From Fibrobacterota bacterium (GTDB lineage: Bacteria > Fibrobacterota > Fibrobacteria > UBA11236), in contig JAQBPO010000090.1 in the NCBI GenBank assembly GCA_028287465.1, positions 1 to 38,226 of the forward strand: a stretch of DNA of 38,226 nt. The letters are read 5' to 3'. The notes beneath the pieces were generated by a model, which saw nothing but the letters and a program-made list of their open reading frames with translations, made no database searches and had not been told where the DNA came from. Within the stretch, counting starts at the first letter, position 1; the number at the start of each line of letters is the position of its first letter. Positions 6,033 through 33,888 of this stretch are shown one piece after another. The translations under genes and the position numbers were made by a program.

Positions 6033-6998
6033 ATGAATCAATCCAAGCTTCAGCACCTGAATACCCTGCTGGATTTGGACCGGAGCCAAGTGGAGCACCT
6101 GCTCGATCTGGCCGCCGCCATCAAGCGGGAATACAAGACCTCCGGCCCCAGCGACGCCCTTAAAGGCCGGACCGCCGCCATGATCTTCGAGAAACCAAGC
6201 CTGCGCACTCGGGTGACCTTCGAGGCCGGCATGGTCCAGCTCGGGGGCGCCGCCATCAACCTGGATCCGTCGCAAATCTCCCTGGGCAACCGCGAGTCCG
6301 TCAAGGACGCGGCCTTGTGCCTCTCCCGCTGGGTCGATGCCATCATCGCGCGCACCTTCAGCCATAAACTCGTTCTGGACCTGGCCAAATACGCTTCCGT
6401 GCCCGTCATCAACGCCCTCACGGACCTGCACCATCCCTGCCAGGCCTTGGCCCTGGGCCAGACCCTGATGGAAAAACGCGGCAAGCTCGCCGGCCAGACC
6501 CTTGCTTTCGTCGGGGACGGCAACAACGTGGCCAATTCCCTGGCCGAACTCGCGGCGCATCTCGGCATGCACTTCGTATTGGCCTGCCCCAAAGGGTATG
6601 AACAGAACCCGGACGTGCTCAAATCCCTGGAACCGTACTTCAAGAGGTCCGGCGGGTCCTATACCGTCACCCATGACGCGGATGCGGGCGTGGCGAAGGC
6701 CGATTGCATCTATACGGATGTTTGGGTGAGCATGGGCGAGGAAGCCCAGGCCGAGCAGAAGAAAAAGCAATTCGCGGGATTCCAGGTCAATTCCAGGCTC
6801 CTGTCCAAGGCCCCGGCGGATTGCCTGGTGACCCATTGCCTGCCCGCGCATGTGGACGAGGAAATCACGCAAGAAGTGATGGACTCTCCGCGCTGCGTAT
6901 GCTTTGATGAAGCTGAGAACCGGCTGCATGCGCAAAAAGCGGTGCTCCTGACCCTGATATCCGGCCCGAACGGCGCCGGACAGGTCTCCGGTCGATAG
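6033..6998 (+). CDS. argF: Ornithine carbamoyltransferase
   Basis: 321 residues. The enzyme makes citrulline from ornithine and carbamoyl phosphate in arginine synthesis. The carbamoyl-phosphate loop reads EKPSLRTRVTFE (STRTR variant, residues 54-65). The HPCQ motif is at 135-138. The ornithine-side loop is DVWVSMGEE and the catalytic cysteine lies in HCLPAHVDEE. The length and the SLRTR form fit anabolic enzymes. The next gene starts 18 bases after the stop, so argF may be the first gene of the transcript that carries the KaiC-like cassette. Confidence 0.97.
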   Translation: MNQSKLQHLNTLLDLDRSQVEHLLDLAAAIKREYKTSGPSDALKGRTAAMIFEKPSLRTRVTFEAGMVQLGGAAINLDPSQISLGNRESVKDAALCLSRWVDAIIARTFSHKLVLDLAKYASVPVINALTDLHHPCQALALGQTLMEKRGKLAGQTLAFVGDGNNVANSLAELAAHLGMHFVLACPKGYEQNPDVLKSLEPYFKRSGGSYTVTHDADAGVAKADCIYTDVWVSMGEEAQAEQKKKQFAGFQVNSRLLSKAPADCLVTHCLPAHVDEEITQEVMDSPRCVCFDEAENRLHAQKAVLLTLISGPNGAGQVSGR

Positions 6999-7016: not shown

Positions 7017-7799
7017 ATGCTGGAGAGAGCGGCTTTCGGAATCGAAGCGTTGGACAAGATGATCGGCGGCGGCGTGGTCAGGGGAAGCGCCACCGTGGTG
7101 GAAGGCGCGCCCGGCACAGGCAAAACCACGCTGGGCATGCAGTTCATCGTGAACGGCATCGAGAAGTTCCAGGAACCGGGCCTCATCCTCACCTTCGAGG
7201 AATTCCCTTCCCAGTACTACCATGATGCCCTGAACTTCGGATGGGATCTCAAGAAGTACGAAGAATCCGGGATGCTCAAGATCATCTTTTCCGATCCGTC
7301 CACCGTGGCCAGCGAAGTGGAAGAGCTGGGCGGGGGTCTCGAAACCCTCATCGACGAGATGGGCATCAAGCGCTGCCTGGTCGATTCCCTGACCCATTTC
7401 GAATACGCTGCGGAAGAATCCGACGACCTGCGCGAGATGGAATTCGATTTCATCACCAGCCTCAAGCGCGAAGGCATCACTTCCCTTCTGCTCCGCGAAA
7501 ACAGCAATCTCCTGGGCGATACCAGCAGCCTGTCCCAAGCGCCCTTCATCGCCGACAATTATTTCATCCTCCGCTACGTCGAGATCGACAGCGCCATCTC
7601 CAAGGCCATCCTGGTGCTTAAGATGCGCGGCAGCCAGCACGCGAAGGACATCCGCCAGTTCCATATCGCCAAGGGCGGCATCGAGATCATGGAGAAGTTC
7701 GTCGGGCGCCAGGGCGTCATGAGCGGATCGCCGGTTAAGACCGATGCCGACACCTTCGTCGAGGCGTTCAGCGCCTTCGGCAAACGCAAGGGTAAGTAG
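7017..7799 (+). CDS. Single-domain KaiC-like (RAD55-type) ATPase
   Basis: 260 residues, one RecA/KaiC domain instead of the two in cyanobacterial KaiC. Walker A is EGAPGTGKTT (29-38). The paired catalytic glutamates follow the second strand (TFEEFPSQ, E61-E62). Walker B ends in LVDS (D123). The KaiC-family signature KMRGSQHAKDIRQFHI (202-217) supplies the arginine finger region. Such proteins act as ATP-dependent signalling switches or kinases in bacteria and archaea; the substrate here is unknown. AGGAG precedes the ATG. Two small membrane proteins and a receiver follow within 2-4 bases each, so this looks like the output or input ATPase of a membrane-linked relay. No KaiA or KaiB is visible, so a circadian role is not implied. 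Confidence 0.92.
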   Translation: MLERAAFGIEALDKMIGGGVVRGSATVVEGAPGTGKTTLGMQFIVNGIEKFQEPGLILTFEEFPSQYYHDALNFGWDLKKYEESGMLKIIFSDPSTVASEVEELGGGLETLIDEMGIKRCLVDSLTHFEYAAEESDDLREMEFDFITSLKREGITSLLLRENSNLLGDTSSLSQAPFIADNYFILRYVEIDSAISKAILVLKMRGSQHAKDIRQFHIAKGGIEIMEKFVGRQGVMSGSPVKTDADTFVEAFSAFGKRKGK

Positions 7800-7801
7800 G
7801 C

Positions 7802-8092
7802 TTGTCCACGATCCAGGCGGTGGGCATGTTGCTGACTTCGCTGCTGTTCAGCGTCGTGGGCTTCTACCTGACCCTTATCGCCAAATTCTACCGTCAGAAG
7901 TTCCGCAAGGGGCCCCCGCACCGGTACCTGCAGATCGCCTTGGGCGTATTGGTCGCGGGACTCGTCCTGAAGCTGGAATTCTTCACCGCATTCGTCCCCG
8001 CATACGTTCCAAACGGCATCATCTGCGCCGGCGGGCTGGCATTCTCCGGCCTGGGCTATGCCTTGTACCGCACAATGATGAGCGTGGATTAG
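7802..8092 (+). CDS. Small three-helix membrane protein of the KaiC cassette
   Basis: 96 residues starting at a TTG two bases after the kaiC-like stop (an ATG at 7826 is the alternative). Predicted helices are at about 5-27, 43-62 and 71-90. A strongly basic loop (KFYRQKFRKGPPHRY) lies between helices 1 and 2, which places that loop in the cytoplasm. I recognise no family. The next protein has the same length, helix spacing and basic loop. The position between an ATPase and a receiver suggests a membrane anchor or sensor. Function unknown. Confidence 0.75.
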   Translation: MSTIQAVGMLLTSLLFSVVGFYLTLIAKFYRQKFRKGPPHRYLQIALGVLVAGLVLKLEFFTAFVPAYVPNGIICAGGLAFSGLGYALYRTMMSVD

Positions 8093-8096
8093 CCCT

Positions 8097-8396
8097 ATGG
8101 TACCCATTTCCGCCGTCACCATTATCATCCTGCACCTGACCTTCATCGTCACCTTCCTGGTCGTCGCTTCCCTGAGCCGCATTTTCGGGGCGGCGCGCAA
8201 GAAAAAGCCCTTATACAAGCTTTTCTACGTAGCGAGCCTGCTCATGTCCCTGTCCATGGTAGTGAGCCTGCTGGGGTTGGATCTGCAATACATGGCCTTG
8301 GCCGCAGTAGGGCTCGATTTGGTGGGCCTGATATTGGGATGCGCGGTAACTTATTTCTACTGGGACTGGCTCCCTCGTGAATTGTCAAAGGGGTAG
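8097..8396 (+). CDS. Second small three-helix membrane protein of the KaiC cassette
   Basis: 99 residues. Helices are at about 4-28, 43-60 and 66-86, with a basic segment RIFGAARKKKPLYK after the first. It starts 4 bases after the preceding membrane gene and ends 2 bases before the receiver, so the whole group must be one transcript. It aligns loosely with its neighbour (first helix, basic loop ending in P-x-x-Y/K, second and third helices), suggesting an old duplication and possibly a hetero-oligomer. No known family recognised. Confidence 0.75.
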   Translation: MVPISAVTIIILHLTFIVTFLVVASLSRIFGAARKKKPLYKLFYVASLLMSLSMVVSLLGLDLQYMALAAVGLDLVGLILGCAVTYFYWDWLPRELSKG

Positions 8397-8398
8397 GA

Positions 8399-8779
8399 AT
8401 GGCGAAGATACTTTGCGTCGACGACGAAAGGGACATCGCGGACCTCGTGAAGCTCGTGCTCGAGCTGGGGCAGCATCAGGTGACGGTCGTGACCGAACCG
8501 GAGAACGCCGTTTCGACCGCCCTTGAACTCAAGCCGGATTTGATCCTGCTCGACGTGGTGATGCCCCACGTGGACGGCTTCGACATCTTCCGCGAGCTCC
8601 GCGAACAGCCTTCCCTGGCCAAGATCCCCATCGCCTTCCTCACGAGCAACAACAAGTCCGTGGACCTGATGGTGGGCCTTCACGTGATGAAGGCCGAAGA
8701 CTACATCACCAAGCCCTTCGGGAAGCAGGAGCTTCTCGACCGGGTGAATGCCTTGCTGAAGAAGCACGGGAACCATTGA
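8399..8779 (+). CDS. Stand-alone response-regulator receiver (CheY-like)
   Basis: 126 residues, a complete receiver with no output domain. It has the acidic pair D8-D9, the phospho-acceptor D52 in LILLDVVMP, the switch threonine T82 in FLTSNN and the conserved lysine K105 in ITKPF. The helix before the lysine (GLHVMKAEDYITKP) is typical. It is the last gene of the KaiC-like cassette and overlaps the same transcript by spacing (2 bases). No histidine kinase is adjacent; the only kinase in the window is creC, more than 22 kb away. The phosphodonor is therefore unknown and could be an orphan kinase elsewhere. Confidence 0.95.
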   Translation: MAKILCVDDERDIADLVKLVLELGQHQVTVVTEPENAVSTALELKPDLILLDVVMPHVDGFDIFRELREQPSLAKIPIAFLTSNNKSVDLMVGLHVMKAEDYITKPFGKQELLDRVNALLKKHGNH

Positions 8780-8804: not shown

Positions 8805-8832
8805 AAAAAGGCCCGCTCAAGCGGGCCTTTTT
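8805..8832. terminator. Strong bidirectional intrinsic terminator
   Basis: A perfect inverted repeat (AAAAAGGCCCGCT, two central bases, then its complement) gives a GC-rich stem with A5 on one side and T5 on the other. It therefore works in both directions. It separates the KaiC-like cassette from the convergent gene at 8870-9532. Confidence 0.93.
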
Positions 8833-8869: not shown

Positions 8870-9532
8870 TTACCAGGCGTCCTTGGCCGAGTCGCTCTCC
8901 TGCTTGGCCGAAGCGAGGGATTCCTCGAGATCCTTGGCGGCGGCGATGTAATCCGGGTTCTTGTGGGTCTTTCCCTTGAAGTGCTCGAGGATCACCGCGA
9001 GCTTTTCCTCGGTGAAGGTCAGCTTCATCTGCTTGGTGACCTTGCCTTTGTATCCCCACTTCTTCATCAGCTCTTCGCTCAGCTCGAAGGAATCCTCGGC
9101 TGTGTAGAAATTCATCTCCTCCGACTGGAACGCGAAGCACTCGTCCATGTCCATGCATTCGGGCGCGGGGGCTCCGCTTTCCTTGGTCTCCATCCATTTG
9201 TGGACATGGCGCTTGCGCACCTCGAGGATCTTGTCCAGGCGCATGTAGCCGACGATCAGGAACTTGCCGCGATACGCTTCAACCGCTCCCTGGTACCGGG
9301 TGCCGAAGAGGAAATAGCGCCGGCGGTTCTTCATGGTGGCCAAGCGGGTTTTGGCATTCACGCACTGCAGGAATCCGTAGGTACCGGTTTCGTAATTGGG
9401 CTCCACCACCGGGTGCCCTTGATCGTCCACGGGTTCGCGTACCGCAAGTTCATGCTGCTTGGCCGAATCCAGGTGGATGAGCACGCCTTCGCCTTTTCCC
9501 CGATAATCCTGCCAGTTTCCCGTGCTCAACAT
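8870..9532 (-). CDS. Conserved-looking protein of unknown function
   Basis: 220 residues, soluble, no signal peptide or membrane segment. The N-terminal half is beta-rich (RRYFLFGTRY, RGKFLIVGYMRLDKI) and reminds me of small PUA/EVE-like nucleic-acid-associated barrels, but this is only an impression. The middle carries an acidic, Met/Cys-containing stretch (PECMDMDECFAF). The C-terminus is a charged helical region with VILEHFKGKTHKNPDYIAAAKDL. AAAGG nine bases before ATG 9532 supports the start. It has its own good promoter about 100 bases upstream and a strong terminator downstream, so it is a single-gene unit. I do not recognise the family. Confidence 0.75.
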   Translation of the reverse strand: MLSTGNWQDYRGKGEGVLIHLDSAKQHELAVREPVDDQGHPVVEPNYETGTYGFLQCVNAKTRLATMKNRRRYFLFGTRYQGAVEAYRGKFLIVGYMRLDKILEVRKRHVHKWMETKESGAPAPECMDMDECFAFQSEEMNFYTAEDSFELSEELMKKWGYKGKVTKQMKLTFTEEKLAVILEHFKGKTHKNPDYIAAAKDLEESLASAKQESDSAKDAW

Positions 9533-30326: not shown

Positions 30327-31055
30327 ATGAAGCATCGCATCCTCATCATCGAAGACGAACCGGCCATCGCCGACAATATCGTGTATGCCCTGGAGACCGA
30401 AGGCTTCCTCTGCCGGTGGTGCGCCACAGGCGGCGAAGGCCTCCGCGCCCTCGGGGAACATTTCGATCTGGCGGTGCTGGACGTGGGATTGCCCGATATC
30501 GGCGGCTTCGATCTGTGCCGGGAAATCCGCAAAACCCATGACCTGCCCATCGTGTTCCTGACGGCACGGGCGGGTGAAATCGATCGGGTGGTGGGCCTGG
30601 AAATCGGCGCGGACGATTACGTGGTCAAGCCCTTCAGCCCCAGGGAACTGGCCGCGCGCATCAAGGCCATCCTCCGCCGCACCGCGGTTGCGAAACCGCC
30701 CCGGCCGGAAGCCTTGCCTATAACGATGCCCATCGCGGCTCCGGATCCGCTTTCGGCCTTTCCGTTCCGGGTGGATGCCGATCGGCTCCTCATCGCCTAT
30801 TTCAACGTCCCCCTGGAACTTTCCCGGTACGAATACCGGCTCCTGGCCGTCCTTCTGGAAAAGCCCGGACGCGTCCTGTCCCGCGAGCAGCTGATGGAAA
30901 AGGCCTGGGATTCCCCGGAATCCAGTCTGGACCGCACCGTGGACGCCCATGTCAAAAGCCTCCGCGCGAAATTGCGCGCGGTCCGCCCCGAGATCGATCC
31001 CATCCGCACCCACCGGGGCACGGGTTATTCGCTTAAGGAAGACTGGCTGCCGTGA
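30327..31055 (+). CDS. creB: CreB-like response regulator
   Basis: 242 residues, OmpR family. The receiver spans 1-120 (acidic pair E9-D10, phospho-acceptor D52 in LAVLDVGLPDIGGFDLC, FLTARAGEIDRVVGLEIGADDYVVKPFSPREL). The winged-helix DNA-binding domain spans 150-240 (LSRYEYRLLAVLLEKPGRVLSREQLMEKAW, DRTVDAHVKSLRAKLRAVRPEIDPIRTHRGTGYSL). Both halves match the E. coli CreB pattern closely. It overlaps creC by 4 bases. CreB binds direct repeats TTCAC-N6-TTCAC, and such repeats are present before creD. Confidence 0.93.
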   Translation: MKHRILIIEDEPAIADNIVYALETEGFLCRWCATGGEGLRALGEHFDLAVLDVGLPDIGGFDLCREIRKTHDLPIVFLTARAGEIDRVVGLEIGADDYVVKPFSPRELAARIKAILRRTAVAKPPRPEALPITMPIAAPDPLSAFPFRVDADRLLIAYFNVPLELSRYEYRLLAVLLEKPGRVLSREQLMEKAWDSPESSLDRTVDAHVKSLRAKLRAVRPEIDPIRTHRGTGYSLKEDWLP

Positions 31056-32500
31056 AACTGCGCACCCGCCTGTTCCTGGGCTTCTTCCTGCTTTCGGGAG
31101 CGGGCTTCTATTTCCTCGTGAACCGGATCCTGGATGATCTGCGGCCCCGCTACCTGGAATCCTCCGAGGTGGGCCTGATCGATACTTCCAACCTTCTCGC
31201 CGCCTTGCTGGAATCGGACCTCAGCAGGAACGGGATCCCGGTGCAAAGCCTGCGCGAAGCCTTCAGGAAGATGCCGGAACGGATCATTTCCGCAAAAGTA
31301 CGGGACATCGTCAAGACGGGGATGGACCTGCGCGTCTACGTGACCGATTCAGCGGGCATGGTCGTATTCGATTCGGACGGCGGGCGCGACGAGGGCAAGG
31401 ACTATTCGCGTTGGAACGACGTATACAGGACCTTGCGCGGCCAGTATGGCGCGCGTTCCACCCGGACCGATCCGGAAAAGCCCTCCACCTCCTTCATGTA
31501 CGTCGGCGCGCCGATCCGCAAGCCCGGTTCGCAGCGGGTCGCGGGAGTGGTCACGGTTTCCAAGCCTTCCAACAGCATCGACCTGTTCATCAGCGCCGCG
31601 CGCGGGAAGATCGTGGCCGGCGGCCTGGTGGCGGCCTTCGCCGTCGCCCTGTTGGGGATGGTTGTCTCGGCCCTCATCCTGCGCCCCATCCAACGCCTGA
31701 CCGACTACGCCCGCGCCATCCGGGACGGGCGCCCTGCGCCGCTCCCGGCCCTGGGACGCAGCGAAATCGGGGAGATGGGACGCGCCTTCGAGGAGATGCG
31801 CGAAGCGCTGGAAGGCCGCAAATACGTGGAGCAATACGTGCATACCTTGACCCACGAGTTGAAGAGTCCGATGTCTTCGGTGCGCGGGGCCGCGGAGCTC
31901 CTCCAGGAGGACATGCCCCGGGAAAAGCGGGCGGGATTCCTGGCCAACATCCGATCGGAAATCGATCGCATGCAATCCCTGGTGGACCGTATGCTCGACC
32001 TTTCGGGATTGGAAAGCCGGCGCGGCCTGGAGGAGTCCCAGCGCGTGGAGCTTTCCGGTCTGGCGATGGAAGTGCGGGACCGGCTGGGCGCTCCCCTCGT
32101 CCGCAAGGAAATCGACCTGCACGCCTCCCTGGAGTCCGGGTTATGGGTGCTCGGTGAGAAGTTCCTGCTGCAACAGGCCTTCCAGAACCTGCTCGACAAT
32201 GCCATCGCCTTCAGCCCCAAGGGCGGCCGCCTGGACATCCGCGCGGGACGGGTGGGTGGCCTGATCCAGCTCGAGGTCCTCGATCAAGGGCCCGGCATCC
32301 CGGGATACGCCCGTGAAAAGGTCTTCGGGAAATTCTTCTCCCTGCAAAGGCCGGACACGGGACGCAAGAGCTCGGGCCTCGGCCTGACCATAGTCCATGA
32401 AATCACCCGGCTGCACCAGGGAACCATCCGCCTGGAAGCGCGCCCGGAGGGTGGTCTCCGGGCGGTATGGAGCCTCCCGGCTTCCATCTCCTTGAACTGA
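31052..32500 (+). CDS. creC: CreC-like sensor histidine kinase
   Basis: 482 residues from GTG 31052, overlapping the creB stop. A first helix (FLGFFLLSGAGFYFLV) and a second (about 188-210) enclose a periplasmic sensor with the CreC hallmark DYSRWNDVYRTLRGQYGARSTRTDP (about 117-141) and SFMYVGAPI. HAMP follows (RPIQRLTDYARAIRDGRPAPLP). The phospho-accepting H268 lies in THELKSPMSSVRGAAELL. The ATPase has NLLDNAIAFSPKGG, DQGPGIPGYAREKVFGKFFSL and SSGLGLTIV. CreC in E. coli responds to carbon or redox state through an unsettled signal. creD, the usual next gene, is displaced by about 2.2 kb. Confidence 0.93.
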   Translation: MKLRTRLFLGFFLLSGAGFYFLVNRILDDLRPRYLESSEVGLIDTSNLLAALLESDLSRNGIPVQSLREAFRKMPERIISAKVRDIVKTGMDLRVYVTDSAGMVVFDSDGGRDEGKDYSRWNDVYRTLRGQYGARSTRTDPEKPSTSFMYVGAPIRKPGSQRVAGVVTVSKPSNSIDLFISAARGKIVAGGLVAAFAVALLGMVVSALILRPIQRLTDYARAIRDGRPAPLPALGRSEIGEMGRAFEEMREALEGRKYVEQYVHTLTHELKSPMSSVRGAAELLQEDMPREKRAGFLANIRSEIDRMQSLVDRMLDLSGLESRRGLEESQRVELSGLAMEVRDRLGAPLVRKEIDLHASLESGLWVLGEKFLLQQAFQNLLDNAIAFSPKGGRLDIRAGRVGGLIQLEVLDQGPGIPGYAREKVFGKFFSLQRPDTGRKSSGLGLTIVHEITRLHQGTIRLEARPEGGLRAVWSLPASISLN

Positions 32501-32505
32501 TCCCG

Positions 32506-33888
32506 TCAATCCTCCTTGCCCACCCAACATCCATGGAAACCGACGGGGATGCGATGGGGAATGCGGACTTCCGCGATGGGACCCTTATCTATCCGCAGGG
32601 AATCCAGGATCAACAAATCGCTCGTGCCCGATTCCCCGCGGTAGGCCAGGGTCAGCAGGTACCCTTCGCCTTCGCCCCCACCTGATTTCGGAACGAAGCA
32701 GGCCTCATTCAGGACGTCATCGCCAGGCAAGACGAAGACGCGCCGGCCCTTGGTCCGGAAGTCGATATGGACGATGGCGTCCCAAAGGCCGTCCGTCCTC
32801 GTTCCGTGCGACTGCGCGACGAAAAACCCGTGACGGTATTCCTGGCCGCAGAACCGCTCATCCATCCTCGGCATTTCGCCCCCGGTCCCGTCCAGGATTT
32901 CCTTGTTTACCGTGCGCGACTCCGGATCCAGGGTCCACCTGACGAGCCGGGTCGGGAAATCGTCCTTCCCCTCCTGGAACGGCTTCGCATCGTCCGGAAT
33001 CCTGTCGCCAACCATGGCGTCGAGCATGATGCTTCCGTCCTTCTCGAAGGCATTCATGAAATGGAAGGCGAAACAGGCGTCGGTCCGGAGCCAAACGACC
33101 TCGCCTCTTCCATGCCGAGGCATGATCCCGAAGCGCGTCCCGAGCCCGGGTTCCCAGGCGATGGGGGATAGACCCTTGGAGGCCCTTTCCATGTCCAGGG
33201 TAAGGGGGAATACGGGGAATACGACATGGTTTTCGGTGACGGCGAAGTCATGCATCATGGACGGGTAGGGTACGGGGATCTTCCTGGTTTCCACCAGGTT
33301 GCCGGCCTTGTCCGCCCGGAAAAAGACGAGTTCGCGCGCCGCTCCGAATACGTTGCTGAAGAAAAGGAGCTCACCCGTAAGCGGATCGATCTTGGGATGC
33401 GCGGTCATCGCGCGATCGAGCCGTCCATGGAAATCCCATGGGCCCCTGGTTTCGAGGGTTTGCGGATCGAGTTCGATGGGGAAGCCCGCTTCCCAAAGCG
33501 CGAGCAACCTGCCCCCATGCCGGATCACGTTCGTGTTCGCGACGTTGCCGGATCGATCCGCCACCGACGGGTCCTTCCAGCGGTTCCGCATCCCGCCGAA
33601 CAGGCTCCTGCCCGCGGCGCGCTCCAGGCCGAACTTCTCCGTGCGCACCCATTTGTTCCTGTAGCCCACGCCCCGGTCCGTGAAGGCGAAGGCATGCACC
33701 ATGCCGTCCCCGTCGAAAAGGTGGTAGCGCTCATCCGATACGAATTGGGGGTTGGGGCCGTTGCGGTAGAAGACGCCGCGCAAATCCATCGGTATCGTCC
33801 CTTCTATGATCAGGTCATGGATCATGCCTTCGTTCGGCCAAGGCTCGAATGCGCCTTGCAGGGAAGGATTCGCGGGAAACGGTTTCAC
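32506..33888 (-). CDS. Carotenoid oxygenase (RPE65/lignostilbene dioxygenase family)
   Basis: 460 residues from GTG 33888. Members use a four-histidine Fe(II) site to cleave a double bond in carotenoids, apocarotenoids or stilbenes. Candidate ligands are H164 (TAHPKIDP), H213 (MMHDFAVTENH), H276 (FHFMNAFE) and H452 (VGFHGCW), at the expected positions. FYRNGPNPQF near the N-terminus is the family entry motif. The GTG overlaps the stop of the DUF2239 gene, making a two-gene operon. No carotenoid-synthesis gene is in the window, so the substrate is unknown. It ends 5 bases from the convergent creC stop. Confidence 0.93.
   Translation of the reverse strand: MKPFPANPSLQGAFEPWPNEGMIHDLIIEGTIPMDLRGVFYRNGPNPQFVSDERYHLFDGDGMVHAFAFTDRGVGYRNKWVRTEKFGLERAAGRSLFGGMRNRWKDPSVADRSGNVANTNVIRHGGRLLALWEAGFPIELDPQTLETRGPWDFHGRLDRAMTAHPKIDPLTGELLFFSNVFGAARELVFFRADKAGNLVETRKIPVPYPSMMHDFAVTENHVVFPVFPLTLDMERASKGLSPIAWEPGLGTRFGIMPRHGRGEVVWLRTDACFAFHFMNAFEKDGSIMLDAMVGDRIPDDAKPFQEGKDDFPTRLVRWTLDPESRTVNKEILDGTGGEMPRMDERFCGQEYRHGFFVAQSHGTRTDGLWDAIVHIDFRTKGRRVFVLPGDDVLNEACFVPKSGGGEGEGYLLTLAYRGESGTSDLLILDSLRIDKGPIAEVRIPHRIPVGFHGCWVGKED

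Follow-up and report, generated by a model that had tools for sequence, protein, structure and literature searches.

The window, a 38,226-nucleotide contig (JAQBPO010000090.1) from a member of the Fibrobacterota, carries four closely spaced genes encoding a single-domain KaiC-like ATPase, two small membrane proteins (TM1 and TM2) and a CheY-like receiver (REC), and this gene order is conserved across the phylum. We see an even chance that the block encodes a KaiC-type signalling switch that is docked at the membrane and specific to the Fibrobacterota; we infer its docking, coupling and output. To our knowledge, KaiC-family ATPases are widespread and little is known of their partners outside the cyanobacterial clock. 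A minimal four-gene unit that is inherited and lost as a whole, with a KaiC unable to use the clock dyad, would be a clean system in which to study ring function by nucleotide state alone, and the block offers an entry point to two membrane-protein families that lack annotation. A search of the literature available to us yielded no paper on both KaiC and Fibrobacter*, and the module, which combines a receiver with members of a known ATPase family and of these two membrane families, is apparently undescribed, in agreement with an initial sequence-only reading that had suggested it may be little described.

Layout, distribution and joint absence of the block

The sequence-only reading had proposed four tightly spaced genes, and all four open reading frames were found in place, separated by 2, 4 and 2 bases (Table 1). 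About 30 bp 3' of REC lies a terminator-like hairpin (fold energy -27.5 kcal/mol, z -6.7), which is predicted to close both the four-gene unit and the convergent gene. The hairpin is absent from the output of a simple promoter/terminator scanner, probably because its T run pairs with an A run and is counted as stem. The argF-like gene is encoded on the same strand 18 bp upstream of KaiC and is probably co-transcribed with the block; it is counted outside the unit. The product of the convergent gene (window 8870-9532, minus strand), UNK220, has 220 aa and no credible Pfam match; in the taxonomic family of the window the gene keeps its place between murI and argF (or the block). Within the genus all four genes of the block are under purifying selection, with median dN/dS values of 0.04 (KaiC), 0.14 (TM1), 0.11 (TM2) and 0.05 (REC).

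Table 1. Features of the four-gene block and its immediate surroundings in the window
Feature	Position	Strand	Basis
argF-like carbamoyltransferase, upstream neighbour of the block	6033..6998	+	PF00185/PF02729
Single-domain KaiC-like ATPase, 260 aa	7017..7799	+	PF06745 match, E 2.9e-51
TM1, three-helix membrane protein, 96 aa, TTG start	7802..8092	+	AlphaFold, hydropathy, alignment
TM2, three-helix membrane protein with short C-terminal helix, 99 aa	8097..8396	+	AlphaFold, alignment
REC, stand-alone CheY-like receiver, 126 aa	8399..8779	+	PF00072 match, E 1.1e-24
Terminator-like hairpin, 7 bp GC stem, TCAA loop, T run	8810..8832	. (bidirectional)	Sequence and fold

A search of the phylum detected cassette-type KaiC proteins well beyond the genus, with 51-62% identity, and gene order was read in 37 loci. 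KaiC, TM1, TM2 and REC follow each other in the same order and nearly abut in the window's own genus, in family f5 of its class and, beyond that class, in families f6-f12; the gaps in these homologous blocks are near zero, with occasional overlaps. In distant loci TM2 is only 19-32% and TM1 11-28% identical to the window copy. Thus, the order has outlived the sequence, and its conservation across the phylum means that the arrangement is not due to chance. The block is preceded by argF in 34 of the 37 loci, and in many loci outside the window's class (L079-L106) it is followed by a second receiver, REC2 (~140 aa), and uvrA. Since the flanking region with pth, rplY, argF and uvrA is itself syntenic, co-occurrence and joint absence carry more weight than gene order by itself.

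Profile searches found the cassette KaiC and TM1 together in 44 of 168 genomes. The KaiC count leaves out G159, which has only a paralogue, and G354, a longer protein from outside the phylum; the TM1 count, from a search of the phylum only, leaves out one chance-level hit (E 0.0016). TM2 was present in 42 of the 44 genomes, and the contigs of the other two (G026 and G045) end before it. KaiC, TM1 and TM2 each occur in one copy per genome. The proposal of one conserved cassette is borne out by the shared order and by the identical set of 44 genomes that carry KaiC and TM1. Two findings had been named beforehand as speaking against it, namely genes not kept together in relatives and membrane proteins paired with unrelated partners: order and co-occurrence proved to be conserved, and neither membrane-protein family was seen away from the cassette KaiC in the genomes searched, TM2 being absent from 224 searched genomes outside the phylum.

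Some close relatives cleanly lack the block. In G019, whose genus mates carry it, 9 bp separate the argF stop from the start of REC2, uvrA comes next, and none of the four genes remain (locus L166). In G160, G162 and G163, which belong to the window's sister genus, argF is directly followed by UNK220, with murI next in G160 and G163, where this was read; in the window both genes come after REC. These absences affect separate parts of the phylum, are probably independent events and may reflect loss or gain alike. Absence of the block as a whole argues for one functional unit and, as the flanks are kept, defines this unit as the four genes, with REC2 and uvrA outside. Synteny of the flanking housekeeping genes would also be expected if the four genes were neighbours without joint function and the whole argF-uvrA region were simply inherited. 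We consider this highly improbable, because exactly these four genes are missing between retained flanks, both membrane-protein families are single-copy and exclusive to the cassette KaiC, and the genes nearly abut or even overlap.

The block occupies a fixed chromosomal place across the phylum, and PADLOC gave only trivial domain hits, which does not point to an anti-phage defence system. Mirror-tree rate covariation of KaiC, TM1, TM2 and REC (OTC baseline) at first suggested a coupling of KaiC with TM1 and TM2 that leaves out REC, and was rejected as evidence because control neighbours gave similar values (KaiC-PTH 0.39, KaiC-REC2 0.56); the pairs of KaiC with the membrane proteins were not separated from unrelated neighbours.

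The KaiC-like ATPase and known KaiC systems

The KaiC-like protein scored 174.5 bits against PF06745 (gathering score 26.6) and is thus a member of the KaiC/RAD55 family. ATPase and ring-contact residues are retained: across 38 homologues no variation was seen in the Walker A motif GAPGTGKTT, the catalytic glutamates (EE, residues 61-62), D123, the K202/R204 finger or a KMRGS..H motif, in line with the single-domain ATPase with intact catalytic residues that the sequence-only reading had described. We take K202/R204 to be the arginine finger, and presume the S431/T432 numbering of the autophosphorylation dyad, from established knowledge of KaiC structures. At the positions aligned with this dyad, the first residue is P in 36 and S in 2 of the 38 homologues, and the second is F in all of them. 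This replacement makes a clock-type phosphocycle at the dyad very unlikely.

In most members, the C-terminal tail of the cassette KaiC (residues ~240-260) reads (T/S)xx(D/E)AFVxxFGKK. This conserved tail follows the end region kept from clock KaiC and contains basic residues and two phenylalanines that do not vary. It is present in the cassette KaiCs and absent from a paralogue (group B) that has no membrane-protein partners. Group B consists of single-domain KaiC proteins (G000:C3:19204-19917, locus L114; also L111-L113 and L115-L118) that are 43-49% identical, were seen only in the window's own class and have different neighbours. In the KaiC tree, which is poorly resolved and leaves the mutual order of the two unsure, cassette KaiCs and group B stand together apart from the two-domain KaiC and archaeal hits (93/93).

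The best solved relatives of the cassette KaiC are clock KaiCs (PDB 8zn5 and 1u9i), with similar scores to both KaiC domains. The likeness to cyanobacterial KaiC covers the RecA/KaiC fold, Walker A, the catalytic glutamates and the KMRGS..H arginine-finger motif, and by analogy with the family the protein would form a hexamer. The block differs in its single-domain KaiC with P/F in place of S431/T432, in the aromatic-basic tail unique to it, and in having membrane-protein partners and no partnership with KaiA/KaiB. The circ_KaiC model gave a score of 145.8 against a cut-off of 546 for this one-domain protein. KaiB was detected above the cut-off in 13 of the 44 block-bearing genomes, and in the window genome it adjoins two-domain KaiCs, not the block. 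KaiB tracks the two-domain KaiCs, so that the proposed independence of the block from KaiB stands. A timing device in the form of a reduced, membrane-anchored KaiC clock would fit the clock KaiCs being the closest solved relatives; with the autophosphorylation dyad absent, a single domain and no tracking with KaiB, we find it scarcely credible.

Bacterial KaiC-KaiB loci share the KaiC family with the block and differ from it in being another locus with a two-domain KaiC beside KaiB. Two contigs of the window genome (G000), C76 (L169) and C49 (L170), carry a two-domain KaiC and KaiB with large receiver-containing proteins nearby, a separate KaiBC-type system.

ArlH/FlaH is likewise a single-domain KaiC-like protein, and its model NF052589 gave 42.2 bits against a cut-off of 215, so the cassette KaiC does not qualify as its equivalog. 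ArlH acts in the archaellum motor with the polytopic membrane protein ArlJ (PMC13286277), whereas the membrane partners in the block are two proteins of ~100 aa. By the tests run, the block is neither a KaiABC clock nor ArlH. KaiC-like "signal hubs" and KaiC-REC fusions have been described in archaea (Makarova 2017, cited in PMC5847659). Such fusions, which like the block link a KaiC-family ATPase to a receiver domain, are confined to Methanosarcinaceae; the block differs in its separate genes, its bacterial phylum and its two dedicated membrane proteins. The archaeal KaiC loci that were read (L074-L078) contained no TM1- or TM2-like neighbours.

The membrane proteins and the receiver

TM1 and TM2 had no credible Pfam or NCBIfam match and none in the PDB, and neither family has a homologue with a known function; single-sequence Pfam hits of their members were scattered and weak, and a profile comparison detected no homology between the two. 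AlphaFold predicts three long helices for each (pLDDT 92 for TM2 and 78 for TM1), hydropathy concurs, and the charge distribution predicts an N-out/C-in topology. TM1 has a conserved basic loop (FYxxKF), predicted to be cytoplasmic, and TM2 a conserved LSxxxGxA loop and a YWxWL tail; the earlier description of two three-helix membrane proteins with basic loops agrees with this. The best-conserved residues are I26, F29, Y30, K33, L88 and M92 in TM1 and L26, S27, G31, A33, Y88, W89, W91, L92 and E95 in TM2. The invariant positions are concentrated in the basic loop and the C-tail, on the predicted cytoplasmic side or its membrane border, and conservation is poor in the transmembrane and external segments. 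This pattern seems to resemble a docking surface more than a sensor for an outside ligand.

REC scored 87.1 bits against PF00072 and belongs to the CheY-like receivers. D9, D52 and K105 are invariant in 35 homologues, position 82 is T or S, and the phosphorylation site D52 is intact. No histidine kinase lies next to the block, and the sole one detected in the window lies at a distance of 22 kb, so block and kinase do not form a classical two-component pair; the claim of a receiver without a kinase holds in the sense of no adjacent kinase. This kinase (31052-32500, plus strand) is a membrane protein with HAMP-HisKA-HATPase architecture, and among the part of its neighbours that was scanned no receiver was identified beside it. 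An RPE65/carotenoid oxygenase-like protein is encoded at 32512-33888 on the minus strand.

Among the 38 loci read over a sufficient length, 36 carry REC. The two without it (L109 and L110) belong to genus g31 of family f8 and amount to a natural deletion of a single part: KaiC, TM1 and TM2 are kept with no REC at the locus, and KaiC retains its C-tail and TM2 all of its nine most conserved positions. This argues against REC being essential and marks the receiver as the separable, loosest part of the block. Furthermore, the persistence of tail and TM2 core where REC is lost suggests that these two point to each other and not to REC. The coupling between the ATPase state of KaiC and phosphorylation of the receiver that the sequence-only reading had suggested is thereby weakened as an obligate link.

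The loss of REC in g31 would also suit TM1 and TM2 being a channel or membrane sensor that is driven or read by the KaiC ATPase, with the receiver incidental, as would the presence of two unrelated three-helix membrane proteins after KaiC on every contig long enough to include them. We regard this as decidedly unlikely, since conserved cytoplasmic faces combined with poorly conserved transmembrane and external parts are unlike a shared pore or ligand site; a fold search of the PDB with the TM2 model gave nothing above generic helical bundles, and no channel fold stood out.

Proposed mechanism and a possible flagellar link

In the membrane-docked switch that we favour, the core is probably a KaiC ring at the membrane, with the receiver as a separable input. 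The KaiC-like protein would form a hexameric ATPase ring. TM1 and TM2 would reside in the inner membrane, their N-termini facing outwards and the C-terminus and conserved basic loop lying on the inner side, and would hold the ring at the membrane, probably through its conserved C-tail. ATP binding and hydrolysis would change the state of the ring without a Ser/Thr phosphocycle, and REC, phosphorylated by a kinase encoded elsewhere, would serve as separable input (or read-out) of the complex. An envelope-linked behaviour, for example motility, would be the most plausible class of output. Tentatively, and with less than even confidence, we propose that the state of the ring is set by the two-protein membrane platform together with the phospho-receiver, which would replace KaiA, KaiB and Ser/Thr autophosphorylation in a wiring specific to the phylum.

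The block might instead be a motility accessory, with an ArlH-like KaiC ring docked by TM1 and TM2 near the flagellar motor and REC as CheY-like input. This appears rather unlikely: ArlH models score far below the cut-off, several flagellate lineages (genera g5-g7 of family f4, families f13 and f14) are without the block, and the correlation between flagella and block is confounded by ancestry and genome size. The link is further weakened by G037, a 96% complete genome that has the block and neither FlhA nor FliG. In favour of a motility accessory, FlhA or FliG was found in 43 of the 44 block-bearing genomes, and most members of the phylum without FlhA are also without the block. ArlH and CirA are both KaiC-like proteins tied to archaeal motility (PMC13286277).
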